64,000 bases of DNA, taken from positions 543,443 to 607,442 of the forward strand of contig JAJTUP010000042.1 in the NCBI GenBank assembly GCA_021399435.1, written 5' to 3'. Position 1 is the stretch's first letter; every line of letters begins with the position of its first letter. Shown here one piece after another: positions 4,481-15,995 of this stretch. The position numbers were made by a program, and so were the translations under genes. The notes under the pieces were generated by a model. The model saw nothing but the letters and a program-made list of their open reading frames with translations. It did not search any database and was not told the DNA's origin. The DNA comes from Diaporthe sp. PMI_573 (lineage: Eukaryota > Ascomycota > Sordariomycetes > Diaporthales > Diaporthaceae).

Positions 4481-6185
4481 TTAAACACGCTTGTTTCGTA
4501 CCCAAATCTTCAAGCATGCGAGCATCTCGATAGTTTCCGCTCTCAACGAGTGTCTCTGCGTGCCTATCGTGAGCTTTGTTCGACTAAAACAGCGCTCACA
4601 TTCACAAGCCGTTGAGGGTATCGTGAGATAATCCAACGCCATCTTGGCTAAACGAGGATACTCGTCCTTCCGCGCTATCCACCAAGCAAGAGGATCGGCC
4701 ACTGGGCGCTGTGGAAGCTCGAAATAAGCCTTGATTTCGTCTTTCTTGGCGAGATCTTCCGGCGGGTCGTAGTAGTCATCGTCGACGAGATGGCTTGTAG
4801 GTGACCGGTCCGGCTCTGGGGCAGGAGCCGGAGCAAGATGCTCGTATTCCTCCTTGAAGAGTTCTTTAAACATGGCAACCACATGCTCTCGGTGATCCTC
4901 CTTAAGACTCTGAGTGATCCATTTCGTCTTGTGGCCCGGGTGAAGGATCATGGCTGCCCAGTAAGCCGGCGAGTCCTCCAACTTCTTAACGTACTTCTCG
5001 AGCTTGTAGATAGCGCAGAGGAGGCTTGCGTTAATACCACGTAAGTTATCGTCACAGAGATCTCGGCGCTCGTGGTTGGGTAAGTCGACAAGGATGCTCC
5101 GGTCCGGTGGCTTGGCCGCGCGAGGCTCCGGCTCAGGCGAGCCAAGCTCACACTCCTGTATTCTGGCTGGTTGTGCTACTGTACGGCGAGATCGTTGTGA
5201 TTGTTCTGCCTGTGGAAGCTCTCCGGCTAGCCCTTGGTCCCCGACTCGAATCTCGGTCTCCGGCCCCAGTATCTCGGGAGCCGTGATCTCAGCGTTGACA
5301 AGGTTTTCACTGTAGATGGTCCGGAACTCGCGAAGCTTCTCAAGTAGCCAGTGAAGCTCACCGGCGAGCTCGTCAAAGGTGGGTTTATTACCTGTTCATA
5401 ATCTTCTGTCAGGAGAAAATGCTCAGCAGGAGGCATGTCGACCTACCTTCGAACTTCTTTGTTAAGACCTTGAATGGCTTTAGAACTTCGAAGTAAATGG
5501 CCAAATAGTGCCAGTCGTCAGCACTTAAAAAGCAATCCTCTGGGGGTCTTTTATCAGCGCTTCTTTTGGCAGCGAGCAAGCTCTGATGATAGCCGATTGG
5601 ACCCTGCAGTCGGAGCGCTCTTGCTACAGCATTATAGACGGAGTTCCATCTAGTGGTGTTTTCCTTCACTAGGTTCAATCCACCGAGCTCACTAATATCC
5701 CAAAGAACTTCGCCAAACTCTTGTTTATTCCCCTCAGAAATCTTGCCGTTTGTAGCATCGAGAAACGCGTCCTTTCGTTGGGTAGAGCCGCTGACCCAAA
5801 CCTCGTACTTTCGCAGCCTTGCAAGTGGCCCAGTCGGTCGCCAAACGGCGAGGAAGTGCAACGCTTCTTGTAGTTCCTTGCGCTCGTCAGAGTCGGCGGG
5901 GAGGCGTGCGAGGGTCTTGGAGAGCTTGCCAGCGTTGAAAGCAGTCGCAGAGAGGTTGATAATGTGATTGCCGCAGCGTAGCCTCCGGGGAGCGGACTCT
6001 TCATCAGGGAGCGTTAGTTCGAGGAGCTTGGTAACAGCATCGTCATTGTTCTTCGCGTTGTCAGAAACAGTATACCCAAGCGTGTCAGAGATCTCGAAGC
6101 CTGGCTGGCCGTCTTCTCCACGGCTCTGATAACGACATCAGACTTCCTTGCTGCTTGGCCTTTGTACTTAGCGGCAAATATCTTC
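4481..6185 (-). pseudogene. hAT transposase, 5'-truncated
   Basis: Cut-and-paste transposase of the hAT superfamily, read on the minus strand. From the upstream side it shows the core segment around TVSDNAKNND (a DDE-core Asp), then RRLRCGNHIINLSA, then ENTTRWNS at about 5660, and finally the hAT C-terminal dimerisation region (YPRLAKMALDYLTIPSTACECERCFS, about 4560-4660). A GT...AG intron at roughly 5448-5392 joins KKFEG to NKPTFDELAGELHW. The BED zinc finger and the N-terminal 200 or so residues are absent: similarity stops near 6185 and no second terminal repeat follows. The remaining part is unusually well preserved for a truncated copy, although I have not proved a single open reading across 5860-6185. 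Confidence 0.7.
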
Positions 6186-6766: not shown

Positions 6767-7057
6767 TTGTCACAGACACGCCTGCAACTCGTCCTCTCTC
6801 AGTCGGCGGGAGTGCTCATTGCCCCGCTAGCTATCAAGACTTTGACTCCGGCAACCCCATTCGATGAACAAGTACTCAGAACTATGCGACTGCTCTCATC
6901 TCCCACAATCGATATTTATCTGCCACCCGGCGATAATTTGGCGGAATATCTTCCCCAAATGTTATCCTCTTCCAACAGCTGCTATACACACCTGGATCTG
7001 AACACCTTCTACCGTGGCAAGGGCGGTAGGGTCATTCCGCCTAGTGGTACTCCTTAG
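6767..7057 (+). other. Open frame, unknown
   Basis: The 96-codon frame has an aliphatic first half (VLSQSAGVLIAPLAIKTL) and a second half rich in L, P and S. The reading also extends upstream in the same frame for about 15 codons without a start. No family is recognised; it may be an exon of a degraded gene. Confidence 0.18.
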
Positions 7058-7201
7058 AGACGTGTATAGCTCGTGATCGCGCTCGTCGTCATCTGACTCC
7101 TCCTTTGACCTCTTACAAAAGGCCTTGAAGACCGTAGTTGTCTCATAGACTTACTTTTCCACGTTGCATAAGGGAAATGCCAAGACAACAGTCCAGATTC
7201 A

Positions 7202-8175
7202 ATGGACCATGGAGACCTTATCGATAATTGGACTGTCAACATGAGCACCAACACCACTGCTTCGGACGAGGGAGTCTCACCTGCACAGCTGGCATATCTT
7301 TCGTTGCTCATCTTGTTCGGCGCTGAGTTCGTCATGGCTCTAATAGTATTCTTTCCTTGGTTTGTTTCTCCTCGCACGCCAATGGGCTCACTCGTTTTTT
7401 TTCCCCTCGACGATTAACAGAGGCCACAGGTATTTATTAAGGCGACTGGAACGCGAACGAATGGGCGTCCATCCGGAGGATCTAGAGGCTGCCAGAGGTC
7501 TCTTCTCAGTCGAAAACTTAGACCAAACAATTGCAACCCGGACCTACAAGAAATGGAAAGCCGAAACGAAAGATGCGGCGAGCTCCGCTGAACGGTCCGG
7601 CACCTTTCACCACTGGTAAGGGCTCCCAAAAACTCGGCGCACCGGTGTTTAGGCTCTAAGTCCACAGCTAGCGTCATTTGCTTGCAGACGTTGCAGGAAA
7701 CGGACACTGTCCGTCACTTGCCGTGCGACCACTCTCATGAGGTTCCCATTTGGTATAATGTTGCCGCTGCCGCATCACCATGGACGACGCTTACCGGTTT
7801 CTTCATTTTCCCACGCACCTTCACTTCCTTGAAGAAGTCACATGTCTTCGATGGCTCAATCGCTGTACAGACAATAGGAAATATACCTTTAATCGTCATT
7901 GCTAGTATTTATTATTCAGCAGGGTCTATAGGCCTTTGCTATCTTTGGTCTGAGTTTCGATCAGATTACTTTTGGCTGCTAGCCCACATATTCTTGTGAG
8001 TTTGCATCTTACCAGATGGTAGAAGCGTTGCTAAGTCGTAGCCCTGGGCTTCTAAATTGCATTAGTGGACTGCTCACCGTTCTTTTAAACGTCTATAGCG
8101 CTCATGATGGTTATGGTCACCGACAGCATGGGCCACCTTAGGAATCGTGTCATTTTCGCTCACCGTATTTCTAAG
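7202..8175 (+). pseudogene. Four-helix fungal membrane protein, 3' end lost to copia
   Basis: A fungal hypothetical membrane protein with about four transmembrane helices. Exon 1 (ATG 7202) holds helix 1 (LAYLSLLILFGAEFVMALIVFF). An intron from a GTTTGT donor near 7360 to an AACAG acceptor near 7423 leads to a charged cytosolic region (RRLERERMGVHPEDLEAA). A second intron ends near 7688. Exon 3 carries helix 2 and helix 3 (NIPLIVIASIYYSAG, LCYLW) to 7996. After a third intron, the last exon reads PGLLNCISGLLTVLLNVYSAHDGY. Near 8113 the expected Tyr-Trp pair needs one more base, so a single-base deletion shifts the frame; the continuation WATLGIVSFSLTVF is then readable in the frame used by the pol ORF. 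At about 8170 gene similarity stops and copia integrase begins. Confidence 0.6.
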
Positions 8176-10621
8176 GTCTCTCTCCGCACGAGATACTTGG
8201 AATGCCCTATGCCGGTGCTGGATATATACCTACCTCGGACCCCCAGATCACATCTCGCACGACCCAGGAACGAACTTTGCTTCTGAGGAATTCAGGAATA
8301 ATGCTAAGATCCTGGGTATATCGTGCGAAGAGATGCCAGTTGAGGCACATTGGGCAGTTGGGAAAGTTGAGAGACTACACGCTCCTCTCCGGAGGGCGTA
8401 CGATATTCTTACCCAAGAAATCGGCCATATTACAGACAAGGAGACTATACTCCAGATGGCAGTCAAAGCTCTCAACGATACTGCTGGCCCAAATGGTATC
8501 GTCCCAACCCTTCTTGTTTTCGGGGCATACCCCCGACTCAACCAAGACTCACCACCATCGCCGGAAATCACACTTCGTGCGGAAGCAATTCAGAAGGCCA
8601 TGAAGATGCTCCGAAAGATTCGCGCAGAGGTAGAGATCAACCGCGCGATCAACACAAGAAACGGCCCAGATCTACACGAAGTTCTCTCCCTACCATTAGG
8701 CGCCGAAGTGATGATTTGGAGAGAAAACAAGGGATTGACTGGACCGCACGAACTCAAGGCCAAAGATGAGCACAATTTGACTATCGAAACAGTCAATGGA
8801 CCTGCTACCTTTCGAGCTACCCAAGCTAAGGCATATCATCGTGCGGAGACACAGCCTGATGAGGTCCAAGACGAGATCGTCGTGCGACCAGAGCCAGAGC
8901 AGCCAAGGAGGCGAGGACGACCTCGGAAAACAACCGCACGATACTTCCAAGTATTCTTGACCCAGAAGGAGAAGGATAACTTCGAGTTAGCCCTCAAACT
9001 CCGTGCGGATAACGTTATCAATGTGCCAGGAGGTCCCTTTGAGGAATCAGATGCTCTGGAACTGAATGCCCTTGCAAATGAAAATGTGTTTTCCTTCGTA
9101 CGATACAAACCAGAGGGAATTCACAAAGGGCTTCGAGTATACAAGACGCGAATGGTACGAGAGATCAAGAACAAGCCTACCAAGCCTATAGAGAAATCCA
9201 GGCTGGTCGTACAAGGCTATGGGGATGAGGAAAAGCAAGCTATCCTCACCCAGGCCCCAACTATTCAGAGGATGAGCCAGAGGCTAATCTTTGCCTTGGG
9301 CCCTACCCTCGTACGAAATTTTGGGGCACAAGGGGAACTCAGGGACATCACTCAAGCCTATACTCAATCTGAGGACAGGTTGACTAGGACAATCATCGCA
9401 CGATTACCTGCGGAGCTTGAGGAGAGGTACCCCGAAGGAACAGTCCTCTTGATATCGAAGCCATTGTACGGGCTTGCGGAATCAGGGCTCTACTGGTTCA
9501 AAACATATCATTCGCACCACACGGAGGCTCTAGGGATGAAGGTCTCTACGTACGACCCATGTTTGCTATATACCACAGATGGCCCAGAGAACTTTGCTAT
9601 CACAGGTATGCAAACAGACGATACCTTTACTTTTGCAACTGAGCCCTTCTCGCACAAGGAGGAGGAGGAGTTGAGGAAGAAGAACTTCCGTGCGAAGCCC
9701 AAGACTATTCTGACCCCAGGACAACCAATTGAGTTCAACGGAGGCAGAATTAGTCTCGAAGGGGAGAACATCACCTCCGTACAAAAGGGACAGGCGAGTC
9801 AACTCAGCCTGGTTGACCCTCGTGCGGAAGACGCACCTCAACAGTACATAGCCCAAAGGGCAAGGGGAGCATACATTGCTTCCATCTGCCAACCCGAGGC
9901 TTCGTACGACCTATCAGCAGCAGCACAAGTCAAAGAGCCAGAGGAAAAAGACATCGAGGCTCTGAACGCGCGAATAGAGTGGCAAATGAGGAACCCATCC
10001 AGGGGTCTAACATATGTGCCACTTGACCTCGCACGAGCAAAACTGTGCATCTTCACAGATGGATCTTTTGCAAACAACAAGGACCTAAGCTCACAGCTAG
10101 GGTTCATCATCGTGCTGGCTACGGAAACAGGTCGTACGGAGAATGACTTTGAGATCCAGGGCAATATCATCCACTGGAGCTCTACGAAGTGTAAAAGAGT
10201 TACACGAAGCGTTCTGGCTAGTGAACTCTATGGCATGACTACGGGCTTTGATAGTGGGATTGCCCTTAGTACGACGCTCAACCGGATACTAGACTCTTTG
10301 AACATACCACGAGTCCCACTGGTGATCTGCTCAGACTCACGATCTCTGTACGAACGCCTAGTCAAGCTAGGAACTACAGATGAGAAGAGACTGATGATAG
10401 ATATCATGTCCCTCCGAGAGTCGTACGAAAAGAAAGAGATCTCAGAGGTACGATGGATCGATGGCAAAGACAACCCGGCAGATGCCTGTACGAAGAAGAC
10501 CCCCAACCAGGCCCTGGAACGCCTCATATCTACAAATACGCTCAGAATTCGAATCGAAGCGTTTGTGGATAGGCTGGACAAAAAGGAACCGCACGAAGCA
10601 AAGGAAGCTACCGTGCGATGA
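8147..10621 (+). CDS. Copia pol (partial integrase, RT, RNase H), chimeric 5' end
   Basis: The open frame of 824 codons starts with 13 or so codons from the upstream membrane-protein gene and then becomes copia pol without a stop. Integrase is present from after the first catalytic Asp: HDPGTNF supplies the second Asp and AVGKVERLH the Glu. Reverse transcriptase follows, with KPLYGLAESG and the catalytic box as QTDD (residues about 486-489) in place of YVDD. RNase H shows all four expected acidic positions (TDGSFAN, ASELYGM, CSDSRSL and a final Asp in GKDNPADA). No gag, protease or HHCC finger remains, so it cannot move by itself although its RT/RNase H could in principle be made. The frame ends at TGA 10619-10621. 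Confidence 0.75.
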   Translation: MSFSLTVFLRSLSARDTWNALCRCWIYTYLGPPDHISHDPGTNFASEEFRNNAKILGISCEEMPVEAHWAVGKVERLHAPLRRAYDILTQEIGHITDKETILQMAVKALNDTAGPNGIVPTLLVFGAYPRLNQDSPPSPEITLRAEAIQKAMKMLRKIRAEVEINRAINTRNGPDLHEVLSLPLGAEVMIWRENKGLTGPHELKAKDEHNLTIETVNGPATFRATQAKAYHRAETQPDEVQDEIVVRPEPEQPRRRGRPRKTTARYFQVFLTQKEKDNFELALKLRADNVINVPGGPFEESDALELNALANENVFSFVRYKPEGIHKGLRVYKTRMVREIKNKPTKPIEKSRLVVQGYGDEEKQAILTQAPTIQRMSQRLIFALGPTLVRNFGAQGELRDITQAYTQSEDRLTRTIIARLPAELEERYPEGTVLLISKPLYGLAESGLYWFKTYHSHHTEALGMKVSTYDPCLLYTTDGPENFAITGMQTDDTFTFATEPFSHKEEEELRKKNFRAKPKTILTPGQPIEFNGGRISLEGENITSVQKGQASQLSLVDPRAEDAPQQYIAQRARGAYIASICQPEASYDLSAAAQVKEPEEKDIEALNARIEWQMRNPSRGLTYVPLDLARAKLCIFTDGSFANNKDLSSQLGFIIVLATETGRTENDFEIQGNIIHWSSTKCKRVTRSVLASELYGMTTGFDSGIALSTTLNRILDSLNIPRVPLVICSDSRSLYERLVKLGTTDEKRLMIDIMSLRESYEKKEISEVRWIDGKDNPADACTKKTPNQALERLISTNTLRIRIEAFVDRLDKKEPHEAKEATVR

Positions 10622-11216
10622 AGGAAGAAAGAAGTCGAGGGAAGAAAGGGAGAGGAAGGGTGTTTAAACATTCGCCGGGACAGCGTGCGAGTGTGCGCTG
10701 TCGCCGTATCTTCCCTTTACGGCTGGGCAAGTGCTCACCCGTACGAATGAATCACTGACGGCAAAGGAAAATGCTGCTGAAAGTGCTGCAAGAAAGTTTC
10801 CTTTGTCTGCTGCTTGAGAAGTTGTTGCCGTGCGAAAAGGAGGAAGAAAAGGGGGAGAAAAGTGTCGTCGTGATACCCGGGGGCCAAACGGTTTTCCTGG
10901 TGTACCGTACGTCACTTACACCGAACTTGGTCAAAACTGGTCAGTTCAACCTGACCTTGGTTGCAAAAGATAGCTCTGGAAAAGAGCTATCGTACGAGCA
11001 ATTCAACTTGCTCAAAATCATGGTTTTCAGGGCGTGCGATCTCAAAAAGAAAAGAGAGTCTGTGTTGGAATAGCACCTGGTTGGATCGCACGTAGTTCGA
11101 TAGGTTGGGTGTGCTTAGTCAGCCGGGGGCCCGGCTGGGGAAGAGTGGCCTCTTCCCCTTCGTACGATAGTACACCCGTTTCCCTAAGCAAGCAATACAA
11201 TCAGAACCAACCAACA
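8175..11216 (+). mobile_element. Ty1/copia retrotransposon, 5'-truncated, with 3' LTR
   Basis: The element retains the second part of integrase, reverse transcriptase, RNase H, a 3' non-coding zone, a polypurine tract (about 11044-11059) and a 3' LTR (11063-11216). The 5' LTR, gag, protease and the integrase N-terminus are missing. Its left edge lies inside the last exon of a membrane-protein gene and its right flank is an RBR ligase gene, so the copy sits at a rearranged junction and has no target-site duplication to compare. The CGYRCG motif described separately starts at 8184 and continues into the LTR, marking the extent of the element independently of the protein evidence. Confidence 0.75.
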
Positions 11217-11231
11217 GACCCCTACGTACGT
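8184..11231. repeat. Dispersed CGYRCG (TCGTRCGA-like) motif array
   Basis: I count about 31 copies of CGTACG, CGTGCG or CGCACG in 3.05 kb, most inside a longer YCGYRCGR context. CGTGCG and CGCACG are reverse complements of one another and CGTACG is its own, so the array is one double-stranded motif in both orientations. Starts of the 8-mers include 8184, 8255, 8321, 8396, 8575, 8744, 8839, 8880, 8934, 9001, 9096, 9309, 9396, 9548, 9688, 9820, 9902, 10029, 10132, 10421, 10589, 10611, 10683, 10739, 10828, 10905, 10990, 11032, 11086 and 11160. Several more near-matches (for example 9207 and 10487) fill gaps. About two copies would be expected by chance at even base composition. The copies fall in all three codon phases and continue past the stop codon. 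Confidence 0.8.
11063..11216 (+). repeat. 3' LTR of the copia element
   Basis: The LTR begins TGTTGGAATA, a start typical of copia LTRs, directly after an A/G-rich polypurine tract, and ends CCAACA, giving a TGTTGG...CCAACA inverted pair. It contains two copies of the CGYRCG motif (11086 and 11160). The length of about 154 bases is short but normal for copia. It is followed, after seven bases, by a run of ACGT repeats. Confidence 0.6.
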
Positions 11232-11272
11232 ACGTACTATCGCCATATGGCAAAGGCCATTCAACAGCAGCC

Positions 11273-11986
11273 TTGGATAACGGCCACTCGGCTAGGCATG
11301 AGATTGAGGAAGCAATGTCGGCAGCTTTGATACGGACGTGCAACAAATGCTCAGCACCATTTATAAAGGAAAATGGCTGCAACAAGATGACTTGCACGAA
11401 GTGCAGAAACATCCAGTGCTACGTCTGCTCGAAGTCATGTGAATACAGCCATTTTGACGATGCCAGCCGGGGTGGAAAGACAGGCAACTGTCCATTGTTC
11501 GACGACGGTTACTTCGTAGAGAAGCGGCATCAAGAAGAAGTCCGAGCGGCGGAGGAACAAGCCAGGAAGAGAACCCGGGAGATGCACCCAGAGGTGCAGG
11601 CCGATCTGCTGGAGTTCCAATTGTCTGATCAAGTCAAGAAGGATGAGGAGAAAAAGGCGTCGGCTCCGCAACGTTAGTACCCTTTTGTACAGAGCATGCA
11701 GATAGTGAGAGATGACTTGGGTTTTAATAGATAGGCTCGCTAACTCAGGTTAGACATCCATCATCGTCACCACCATCACCATCACGGGCCAGGCGGTCGC
11801 CTGTGCACATTGGTACGCTTAAACGTGGGAAACATACTCGAGCGGGCTGGCAACCATCTCCTCGGACAAGCTCAGCAACCGCCACAGCCACAGCCACAAG
11901 CACTACCTCATCGTCGACCTCGTCCTATTCCACCTCCTGCTGCTACTGCTCCTCCTCCTCCTCCACACACCGGCACAAGGATTTGA
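11273..11986 (+). pseudogene. RBR E3 ubiquitin ligase (RNF216-like), 3' part
   Basis: The frame carries the end of an RBR ligase: HEIEEAMSAALIRTCNKC, then NGCNKMTCTKC and CYVC, which is the RING2/Rcat zinc pattern. In RBR enzymes the Cys of the NGC turn accepts ubiquitin as a thioester. A Glu/Arg/Lys-rich helix follows (RHQEEVRAAEEQARKRTRE). An intron from GTTAGT at 11673 to TAG at 11753 joins to a second exon that reads a His-rich run, then RLCTLVRLNVGNILERAG, then a Pro/Gln-rich tail, ending with TGA at 11984-11986. RING1 and IBR are absent upstream, where copia DNA ends at 11216, so the gene is 5'-truncated. Fungal RNF216-like proteins are several hundred residues; about 200 codons are left here. 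The remaining coding sequence has no stops, so the truncation seems recent. Confidence 0.7.
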
Positions 11987-13256
11987 TCATTGAAGCTGAG
12001 AGCGGCCGAGGCCGCCCGTGCAAATAATAGCCGATTTTACCGAGGCAGCATCATGGTAATAGAAAATGACATACAGCTAGATATGGATGACATTGAAAAC
12101 TACGAAACTTCTATCCGCCCAATACTCGCTGCACATATCGCTGAGAAACCTCTCCTCTTGTATAATATATGCGCGTAGGAGTATCGTACGACCTATCAGT
12201 AAGCAGCCTCCATCCGCCGCAAAGCGCACCACTTGGATTCGGTTCTGAACTTCCAGACAGCGAGTAGCAGCTACCTCCCAGGCTGTTCTCTTACTACCCG
12301 TACGTCTGTTCTCTGAGATGTAGGAGTTGACCAGAATAGTATTAGCTAATATTGCACGCTATCGTGTCTGGCATTTAGGGTAAATGACTTTGCCTCCGCG
12401 GCGTATTGGTGAGAACTACTGCCGGCCGTGAAGGACAACCTCGCTAGGTCTCATCCACAGTGCCACATAAAAGTTTTACGGATTTCTAATCCGTATACTG
12501 TACCGTTTAGTGATTCTTTACATTTGAAATCCGATTCCTCAAACCATTTTAAGATATGCAACATAGTCTCGGCAGTGGCGACTTTTTATCTGCCCCTTTT
12601 CAGAATAAGGAATTCACATCACGGGATTAAAAATTGTTGGAAGGCAGCACTTCGGGCCCGTCGGAGGCCCGGTGAAGGGCACCGTAGTATCGGCGAAAGG
12701 CACCGCAGCACCGCTCAGGCCCATACGGCGCCCAAGTCAGGGCTGAGCCTCGCTCAGGCCAGCGTGCATCGAGATCCATGAGGGATGGGCAGGTCAGGTT
12801 ATAAGATGGGTGGCTAGACGCACTAGAATCACAATGTAGTTAGGCATCGCAACATAGCACAGAATGTTCAGATCCTGATCTGCCCTCATGCAACCCCTTG
12901 CCCAGCATCTTCCCCAGTGACCTCTCGACAAAAATAAATTTCTTCATTTATGATATGTACATGCAGTACTGCAATCAAGCTTTACGGTTCTGAATATCAT
13001 TTGCACAATAACTTGATTCATGCATGTCTGCTGTTTTCGGGCAATCAGCCACTACTTTGTTTCTTAATTTAGAAATTCTTATCTTAAAAATGAAGAAGTA
13101 GATATTTAACAGTTTAATTTTAAAGTTCCTTAAATCCCTACACCTCACGCTCTAGAGCCCAACCTTTCAAAGCAGTCCTTGTAAGATGATACAGTGTAGC
13201 GGAGGTGCGGCAGTATCGTCGATACATTTATGTTAGTATGTCCTTTGTTAGCAAAA
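11987..13256. other. Intergenic, no gene recognised
   Basis: The frames at 11990-12178 and 12428-12781 have no motif. Two isolated CGTACG sites (12184 and 12299) lie here; the first shares a 16-base identity with copia DNA at 9902, so a scrap of the same element is possible. 12880-13140 is A/T-rich. Confidence 0.3.
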
Positions 13257-14791: not shown

Positions 14792-15965
14792 TCATTCATC
14801 TGCCTCAGCGAAAATCTCGTCACCTTGAAAATCTCGTATCCCAAACCATGACTTCAGGCACTCCAATGCTTCAATCACATCACTCCCAAGTCGATTTCGA
14901 CGGTCTGTAATCGCTATCTTTGCCCCAGAGAAGAGTCGTTCGGGCTCCGCAGAGATTGCAGGAATTGACAATATATCCACGGCCATCTTGCTCAGGCTCG
15001 GGTAGTTTTTCTGCTGCGTCTCCTCTAGCCACCATGCAAGGGCGCTCGTAAAACCATAAACCCGTTCAGACTTGCAATAACGCTCGTATTCGTCCGTGAT
15101 GAGTGGCGGCTGCAGGTGCTTGTTCCGCCAATTCAAGAACTCGTTCGTGGTCGCCGATGGGACCTCGCAGAGTGGAAGAGGTGATTCCACAGGCTTATAT
15201 TCGTTCCACAGCGCCTCAAGCAACTCCTTCGACGACTCAACCCACTCCTTTTTCCAGTTCTCCTGGATGTAGTGCCATTTATGCGAAGGGTGGAGCACGA
15301 TAGCTGCAACGTAGGCAGGTGATTCATCAGTAAGGCGGTAATACTTGTCCATCTTCGCCCAGCCCGAGTTATACATCGGTGCCATCACCGGTTCGTCGAC
15401 ATTTGCCTCCTTGCCGGCTTCGAATTGTGCCAATACGAAGTCCATAGCCAGGAGGACATTGTCGAGTGTTGCAAACGATGATTCGAGAGCCTTAGTCGTC
15501 ATCTTCAGCTTCTCTAAGAAGGACTTGATCTTCTCCAAGATGGTCCAGTCCTCTGAAGAGAGCTCGTCTCCAGCGCAGTCTGCTTCCATCCATTTGTTGA
15601 AATAGCCGTCAATTGCGTCTCTAAGATTCAAGGCCGCTCTCAACATGGTATACCACGAGCTCCACCTTGTGTCGTTGTCTCGCGCAAGCTTACGGTTATG
15701 GCTGATAGCAAGAAACTTTTGGCTGCGCTGAACATTCCGTTGGGTGTAAACGACGAAGTTGTGAAGCTTGCCAAGAGGTCCCTTCTTCCGCCACGCTTCA
15801 ATATGCTTTAGTGTCACATTATACAGACCTGGATCGTCGCGTTCGAGCTTCTCATTGTCGGTAACGAAGAGGAAGGCTTTAGCGGCGAGATTGATGATAT
15901 GACCTTGGCAGCGGAGTCGGTGAACTTTGGGATCGTATCGGATGTCATATCGGCGAAGGAGGCCT
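14792..15965 (-). pseudogene. hAT transposase C-terminal half
   Basis: An uninterrupted 341-codon frame plus an upstream extension (about 15965-15818, HRLRCQGHIINLAAKAF) encodes the C-terminal half of a hAT transposase. Landmarks in order are the RCQGHIINL core, KKGPLGKLHNFV, DNDTRWSSWY, DESPAYVAAIVLHPSHKW and the dimerisation region YPSLSKMAVDILSIPAISAEPERLFSGAK near the end. The N-terminal zinc finger and first catalytic Asp are absent; similarity breaks near 15965. The remaining half has no stop, unlike the hAT at 19.6 kb, so it was truncated rather than mutated away. Confidence 0.75.
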
Positions 15966-15995
15966 GTGGGATGTTAGAACCAGTCAGTAGAAACG

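Follow-up and report, generated by a model that had tools for sequence, protein, structure and literature searches.

Background

Several described systems use a short word that recurs many times. In the Drosophila retrotransposon gypsy, sites for Su(Hw), a host zinc-finger insulator protein, are clustered in a single region close to the 5′ end. Neisseria and Haemophilus have DNA uptake sequences, short words that are spread across coding sequence more evenly than random and are read by an uptake receptor. Small RNA viruses have dispersed packaging signals, which are degenerate RNA stem-loops occurring every some tens of nucleotides. Here, we describe an array of the word TCGTACGA in a Ty1/copia retrotransposon of the fungus Diaporthe sp. 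PMI_573. It was noticed in a stretch of 64,000 nucleotides (contig JAJTUP010000042.1, positions 543,443 to 607,442), the whole of which we call the window. The array resembles the gypsy case in that a retrotransposon bears numerous sites for a DNA-binding host protein, which is here predicted, but its sites lie over the whole 6.4-kb element rather than in one cluster. Unlike the uptake sequences, which occur over whole bacterial chromosomes, the array is limited to one retroelement group. Unlike the packaging stem-loops, its word is nearly dyad-symmetric, and the variants that it tolerates fit DNA better.

The target motifs of the VANC proteins in Arabidopsis VANDAL elements, which are Mutator-like, are short and dense, belong to one transposon group and are rare elsewhere (PMC5735166, PMC10398659). 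These motifs are mainly non-coding, have one orientation, form tandem repeats and vary from family to family, and the protein that binds them is encoded by the element (PMC5735166, PMC10398659). The copia array is likewise a short, high-density motif that is group-specific and rare elsewhere, and in both cases density seems to matter over single sites. However, the copia array occupies both coding and non-coding sequence, with most of it in the former, uses both orientations (38 CGTGCG, 49 CGCACG), and is evenly spaced rather than tandemly repeated. It also uses one word across four families (A to D) and, judged by a protein proxy, across two clades (c1 and c2), with no reader visible in the element. 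Moreover, its carrier is a long terminal repeat (LTR) retrotransposon with reverse transcriptase and integrase, whereas VANDAL elements are DNA transposons. The original prediction, made from the letters of the window alone, supposed that such an array might be undescribed, and we found no description of one in the literature searched, which left most subscription journals outside.

Results

Number of sites in the window

The element is a Ty1/copia LTR retrotransposon, given that integrase precedes reverse transcriptase within a single frame and that there are two LTRs. The original prediction gave about 31 copies of CGTACG, CGTGCG and CGCACG in positions 8184-11231, far above chance. The exact count is 31 (12, 11 and 8, respectively), and two CGCGCG words raise the number of CGYRCG words to 33. 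Dinucleotide shuffles of the same stretch have a mean of 1.39 and a maximum of 6 (n=1000). The coding part holds 23 sites, and shuffling of synonymous codons does not match this count (mean 2.4, maximum 8, n=2000). As predicted, all codon phases are used (8, 8 and 7 sites in the coding part), so no repeated peptide is encoded. Also as predicted, the sites continue past the stop codon into the 3′ non-coding zone and the LTR, where there are nine, and are rare outside the element, with 38 CGYRCG-type words in the remaining ~61 kb of the window. CpG is not elevated (41-57 per array kilobase, where the window ranges from 28 to 98). The array does lie within the element, but the edge at which it had been thought to begin is a truncation: a fuller copy of family A, the window's family, extends 5′ to a 5′ LTR with equal site density, and in it the array spans all 6.4 kb.

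Families with and without the array

The 84-Mb host genome holds at least 46 matches to the element, a lower bound because 40 of 163 candidates were scored. The matches include copies that are 95-100% alike and relatives that are 69-74% alike. Relatives bearing the array belong, beside family A, to families B (loci L021, L022 and L029), C (L031, L032 and L036) and D (L023-L027, L033 and L037), and the four families are mutually ~66-79% identical (blastn). CGTACG or a variant is the top or near-top over-represented 6-mer in each of them, but not in family E (L068 and L069), a relative that is 60-61% identical in protein.

We scanned these loci with a matrix that was seeded and trained on families A to D themselves (threshold 6.5). 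The four families have 283 sites in 21.4 kb, with densities of 12.2-14.1 per kb in seven segments. The density is far lower in random genome (1.08 per kb, eight stretches of 6 kb), in family E (0.60) and in a set of 20 RVT_1 loci (0.51). Elsewhere in the window there are 87 sites in 60.9 kb. A matrix learned from family A only finds 11.1-13.4 sites per kb in the held-out families B, C and D. When the threshold is lowered to 5.0, 218 sites are within long open frames and 84 outside, although some of the 84 are in broken coding sequence of family D.

Counts of CGTACG and its variants are low in the loci used for comparison. Family E has two such words in 3.0 kb, a stretch with 265 CpG, and one in 2.0 kb. 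The eight random stretches have 46 in 48 kb, the 20 RVT_1 loci 0-1.15 per kb, and three other RVT_2 loci (1.5 kb each) none. Genome-wide, TCGTACGA occurs 1074 times and its reversed control 1478 times; nine of the occurrences are in the full family A copy alone. Among the loci examined, only this element group has the array.

The site

The CGYRCG motif of the original prediction is enriched, but the true site is broader. A change of the outer C to T or of the outer G to A is accepted (TGTACG 29, CGTACA 34), whereas inner changes are not enriched (CATACG 2, CGTATG 2). The symmetrised matrix from families A to D gives T(C/t)GTAC(G/a)A; its inner G and C carry 1.95 bits each, and past the first flanking base there is next to no information. 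The resulting consensus, TCGTACGA, is nearly dyad-symmetric, and its inner G and C are nearly invariant. The unsymmetrised matrix is similar, with a right half that is somewhat stricter.

Spacing

Even spacing is a feature beyond what the original prediction had observed. In families A to D, the mean distance between sites is 67-79 bp and the mode 60-75 bp. Among the 276 gaps, lengths of 60-75 bp are the commonest (58, null 25), and 182 gaps are 45-105 bp long (null 93). There are fewer short gaps than in the null (24 below 30 bp, null 80) and fewer long ones (9 above 165 bp, null 26.5; 0 above 240 bp, null 8). Three further gaps, which cross junctions between fetched pieces and are outside the 276, measure 130, 80 and 134 bp. 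No gap exceeds 179 bp in the full 6.4-kb copy of family A, its 130-bp junction gap included. The coefficient of variation (CV) of the spacing is 0.42-0.59, compared with 0.85-0.90 for random placement with equal exclusion, and P for evenness is 0/2000 in six of the seven segments and 0.0025 in segment C5. With strict CGYRCG words only, family A is strongly even and C5 and D3 are less so (P 0.024 each), whereas evenness does not reach significance in D5 (P 0.17) or C3 (P 0.15).

Conservation of positions

As the original prediction would lead one to expect, most positions of the sites are kept between related families. A site in one family is still a site in another for 24 of 33 (A3-D3), 28 of 36 (A3-C3), 18 of 28 (A3-B), 17 of 29 (B-D3) and 17 of 26 (C3-D3). 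This retention of 59-78% contrasts with 21-23% for 191 control motifs, which were made by relabelling and permuting the matrix. Four other pairs, compared without control motifs, gave 15 of 15 (B-C3), 3 of 5 (A5-C5), 5 of 8 (C5-D5) and nothing aligned (A5-D5). In the five controlled comparisons, base identity is 0.77-0.82 in site cores and 0.70-0.75 outside. The sites drift inside the tolerance of the motif yet remain sites, with a turnover of 22-41%.

The array seems to have moulded the sequence of the polyprotein, given that codons under sites are less conserved towards array-less relatives. Towards family E, 0.49 of site codons (n=93) and 0.60 of other codons (n=830) are conserved. The values towards four array-less proteins (P0147, P0143, P0139 and P0156) are 0.44-0.52 for site codons and 0.51-0.57 for others. 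By contrast, site codons reach 0.63 and 0.63 towards the array-bearing P0127 and P0131, where other codons have 0.65 and 0.61.

Other species and two clades

In its three frames, TCG[TC]ACGA encodes the peptides RT, [VA]R and S[YH]D, a proxy that allows the array to be detected from protein databases alone. The best 120 each of 714 and 310 matches make up 215 different proteins, which together with families A to E gave 220 rows. Six rows (P0094, P0101, P0107, P0175, P0192 and P0211, of which P0101 and P0107 had z>4) were removed because of how far they aligned with the query, leaving 214. The named related proteins among the matches listed are from ascomycetes.

The peptides VR, RT or [SPT][YH][DEGV] exceed residue shuffles with z>2 in 44 of the 214 rows, and the reversed pattern does so in 0 of 214. 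A single clade, c1 (37 rows, support 100), includes families A to D and accounts for 34 of the 44 positives. Its misses are P0010 (1.0), P0011 (0.9) and family D (1.96), whose DNA does bear the array. All eight rows of a second clade, c2 (support 97), are positive. The sign of the proxy matches the DNA where both are readable, being positive in families A, B, C and D and negative in E and in two foreign loci (L074 and L075).

When no word is assumed, CGTACG has the highest group mean of all 4096 hexamers in each clade, with CGTGCG and CGCACG next in c1. It is the best of the 64 palindromes for 20 of 33 c1 and 6 of 8 c2 proteins, but is outside the eight commonest best palindromes of the other 168 proteins. 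Spacing at the protein level has a CV below the null in 28 of 30 c1, 7 of 8 c2 and 61 of 150 other proteins. By this proxy, named holders would be Colletotrichum truncatum, C. tabaci, Xylaria grammica, X. palmicola and Truncatella angustata in c1, and Coleophoma cylindrospora in c2; C. incanum (P0107) has a high proxy score and is outside the tree.

An IQ-TREE phylogeny of 39 rows picked from the 214 sets c1 and c2 apart, with array-less lineages between them. Forcing them into one clade costs 79.5 log units (approximately unbiased test, p=0.0007). These protein-level results suggest that two separate copia lineages acquired the array.

Discussion

Proposed reader and function

The array may be an element-length set of predicted binding sites, TCGTACGA, on double-stranded element DNA. 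The reader would be a dimeric DNA-binding protein, most likely a protein of the fungal host that is conserved between ascomycete classes, and at least two copia lineages would have come to use its sites. With two lineages bearing the array, something in the cell probably reads it. Also, when the polyprotein was divided into 22 sections, none had c2 clearly nearer to c1 than to the other proteins (differences of at most 0.02), which favours an external reader. The simplest account is a reader outside the element, namely a host protein conserved across these fungi, although an element-encoded protein in which a few residues have converged may serve instead.

With a site per 60-75 bp, seldom more than ~165 bp apart, the protein would cover the element evenly, either as an integrated copy or as new cDNA. 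Such even cover of the entire element is suggestive of a coat or of chromatin, not of a promoter. The most likely function would be a special chromatin or coat along the element that shields it from silencing or mutation, such as heterochromatin or repeat-induced point mutation (RIP), or that aids DNA formation. Of these, shielding the integrated copy against silencing or RIP is the function that we would favour. RIP is a C-to-T change at CpA, a change that turns CGCACG and CGTGCG into CGTACG, so a site survives such mutation. However, the array is not required for a copia element to stay intact, because intact array-less ones exist (family E).

From the patterns above, we infer protein binding, host encoding, action on DNA and a benefit of the array. 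Taken jointly, a host-encoded dimer that reads a whole-element TCGTACGA array on DNA in at least two lineages is our best reading, and a tentative one, to which we give slightly less than an even chance. A bolder form of it seems a little more doubtful: an undescribed, conserved fungal dimer would bind TCGTACGA, and at least two copia lineages would independently have rewritten their whole genomes, amino acids included, to one site per 60-75 bp and thus an even coat. In this form, a coat code laid over gag-pol would serve escape from silencing or RIP, or the handling of cDNA.

Several points weigh against a host reader of DNA. We found no binding protein for the array sites. The two-clade case for such a reader is built on the protein proxy, the clades were named once the scores were known, and two proteins (P0041 and P0048) are positive among the 169 rows outside c1 and c2. 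The two foreign DNA loci that were read, L074 and L075, are array-less. Families A to D have common ancestry and most of their sites in common, so they are not four independent tests. Finally, each site is present in DNA and transcript alike, so location cannot separate the two, and the sites show some of the asymmetry and pairing that RNA could produce, as follows.

DNA or RNA

The most serious rival is that Gag nucleocapsid or a host RNA-binding protein reads CGYRCG about every 75 nt of the genomic transcript, which contains all the sites, or that the sites pair with each other, condensing the RNA for packaging. On the sense strand, GGTACG outnumbers CGTACC by 18 to 4, although at least four of these sites trace to one conserved Met-Val-Arg. 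Neighbouring asymmetric sites are more often in opposite orientation (33, expected 22.5) than in the same one (12, expected 23.2), and local RNA pairing would also yield such complementary neighbours. The trend disappears at lag 2 and is reversed at lag 3, and neither these counts nor those of asymmetry are independent across families. Complementarity of neighbours is above shuffles (P 0.011 and 0.008; 0.006-0.042 when one family is left out), whereas identity of neighbours is not raised. In local folds of A5, A3, C3 and D3, sites are 0.33-0.39 unpaired, compared with 0.42-0.45 for controls.

Opposed to this is a degeneracy that is symmetric at three levels, which is unexpected for a reader of a single strand. 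CGTGCG and CGCACG occur 38 and 49 times, TGTACG and CGTACA 29 and 34 times, and CATACG and CGTATG twice each. In flanking bases, A exceeds T (127 vs 68; also 164 vs 112 and 65 vs 39) to about the extent of the strand's own A/T skew (0.307/0.194). Moreover, RNA duplexes should accept CGUAUG, which forms a G-U wobble, and avoid CGCACG, which mismatches CGUACG; the reverse is found (2 vs 49). Neighbours of the TG-TG type, which wobble would permit, are depleted (4, expected 8.5) like those of the CA-CA type (8, expected 14.7). The original prediction had suggested a double-stranded DNA motif, and the symmetric degeneracy favours this over RNA without proving it. On this sequence evidence, we consider it likely that the array acts as double-stranded DNA, and a reading of the transcript unlikely.

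Other explanations

It is somewhat less probable again that the reader is encoded by the element, with part of Gag or integrase binding element DNA as VANC does, a precedent that the original prediction had cited. The array is tied to element lineages rather than to all transposons of the genome, and the pol frame has AT-hook-like RGRPRK stretches, both of which would suit an element-encoded reader. However, Pfam finds no domain in the gag-pol frame besides gag_pre-integrase, integrase and reverse transcriptase, and c1 and c2 share no section that array-less relatives lack. In the family A copy, no second long sense frame stands out, short frames lying outside this search. The N-terminus of Gag is predicted with confidence to form a helical domain, for which Foldseek gives no significant match.

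Sites could also build up through a bias in copying, as DNA uptake sequences do, with no benefit from binding in place. The even dispersion over coding sequence and the conservation by way of interchangeable variants resemble those sequences, but other retroelements of the same genome, in the same cell, are without the array, and we regard this explanation as improbable. Chance, CpG content or codon use can safely be set aside given the shuffles, the control motifs, the absence of reversed dipeptides and the CpG-rich but motif-poor family E.

A host-encoded reader of the DNA would make the array a probe for unknown chromatin or genome-defence biology. The array is strong enough to mark protein sequence and occurs in two lineages that are not one clade, which points to a host factor or to a step in fungal copia replication. 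TCGTACGA provides the exact bait sequence for finding the reader, and the array offers a test of retroelement survival in repeat-mutating fungi.

The copia copy in the window

Features of the copy are given in Table 1. Positions 7000-12500 of the window match L006-L009 and L012 with 97-99% identity from 8167/8168 to 11266-11274 (blastn), and 8168 is the truncation point. The window copy retains the 3′ LTR alone. Both LTRs, ~205 bp long and 98% identical, are present in a fuller copy on contig C208, for which a target-site duplication is not established. The RVT_2 match of the window copy scores 25.4 bits and does not reach the curated cut-off of 31.6. In L006, a single gag-pol frame has matches to gag_pre-integrs (398-445), rve (465-546) and RVT_2 (820-986), all three of which score below the curated Pfam cut-offs. 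AT-hook-like stretches also occur twice in family D and once in the array-less family E.

Table 1 Coordinates of the copia copy and its array (positions in the window)
Feature	Position	Strand	Details	Basis
5′-truncated copia family A copy	8168..11266	+	left = break, right = 3′ LTR end	blastn
Truncated gag-pol frame	8168..10621	+	integrase end, reverse transcriptase (RVT_2-like), RNase H-like end; stop codon at 10619-10621	ORF (open reading frame) 8108-10621; RNase H-like end by eye
AT-hook-like RRRGRPRK stretch	8906-8929	+	between integrase and reverse transcriptase	by eye
3′ non-coding zone, sites persist	10622..11060	+	9 CGYRCG in 10622-11231, LTR part included	
3′ LTR, TG(TG)TTGGAATA...TTCAACA	11061..11266	+	~205 bp	sequence comparison
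Array, 41 sites	8185..11230	.	mean gap 76 bp, CV 0.39	matrix scan, threshold 6.5
Array sites 1-14	8185, 8256, 8322, 8397, 8576, 8621, 8642, 8745, 8840, 8881, 8935, 9002, 9097, 9208		first base of hexamer core	
Array sites 15-28	9310, 9397, 9465, 9549, 9651, 9689, 9778, 9821, 9903, 9967, 10030, 10133, 10268, 10347		first base of hexamer core	
Array sites 29-41	10422, 10487, 10590, 10612, 10684, 10740, 10829, 10906, 10991, 11033, 11087, 11161, 11225		first base of hexamer core	

Other observations

Five family D copies, L023-L027 (on contigs C217, C211, C97, C67 and C1), are 99.8-100% identical over 4.6 kb, and on C1, C67, C211 and C217 the match stops ~9.0 kb short of the end of the contig. Such near-identical copies near contig ends suggest a duplicated subtelomeric block; the copy has two stop codons. 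Past the family D frame in L023, at ~3175 and ~3205 of the oriented locus, is a short tandem repeat, both seen units of which hold GGTACGA.

Most of the more distant relatives of the polyprotein contain between ten and thirty-odd TAG/TAA stops, a pattern that resembles RIP, and families A, B and E have open copies. The foreign loci L074 (JAPYPR010000046.1) and L075 (NYXK01000080.1) encode fungal-type copia polyproteins in contigs filed as bacterial metagenome assemblies, and these contigs are probably fungal contamination.

Elsewhere in the window, frames that by eye resemble the end of a hAT-type transposase lie on the minus strand at 4481-6137 and 14792-15973. At 11171-11677, a frame runs from the LTR into a cysteine-rich stretch resembling, again by eye, part of an RBR E3 ligase, so the element may have inserted at or in such a gene.

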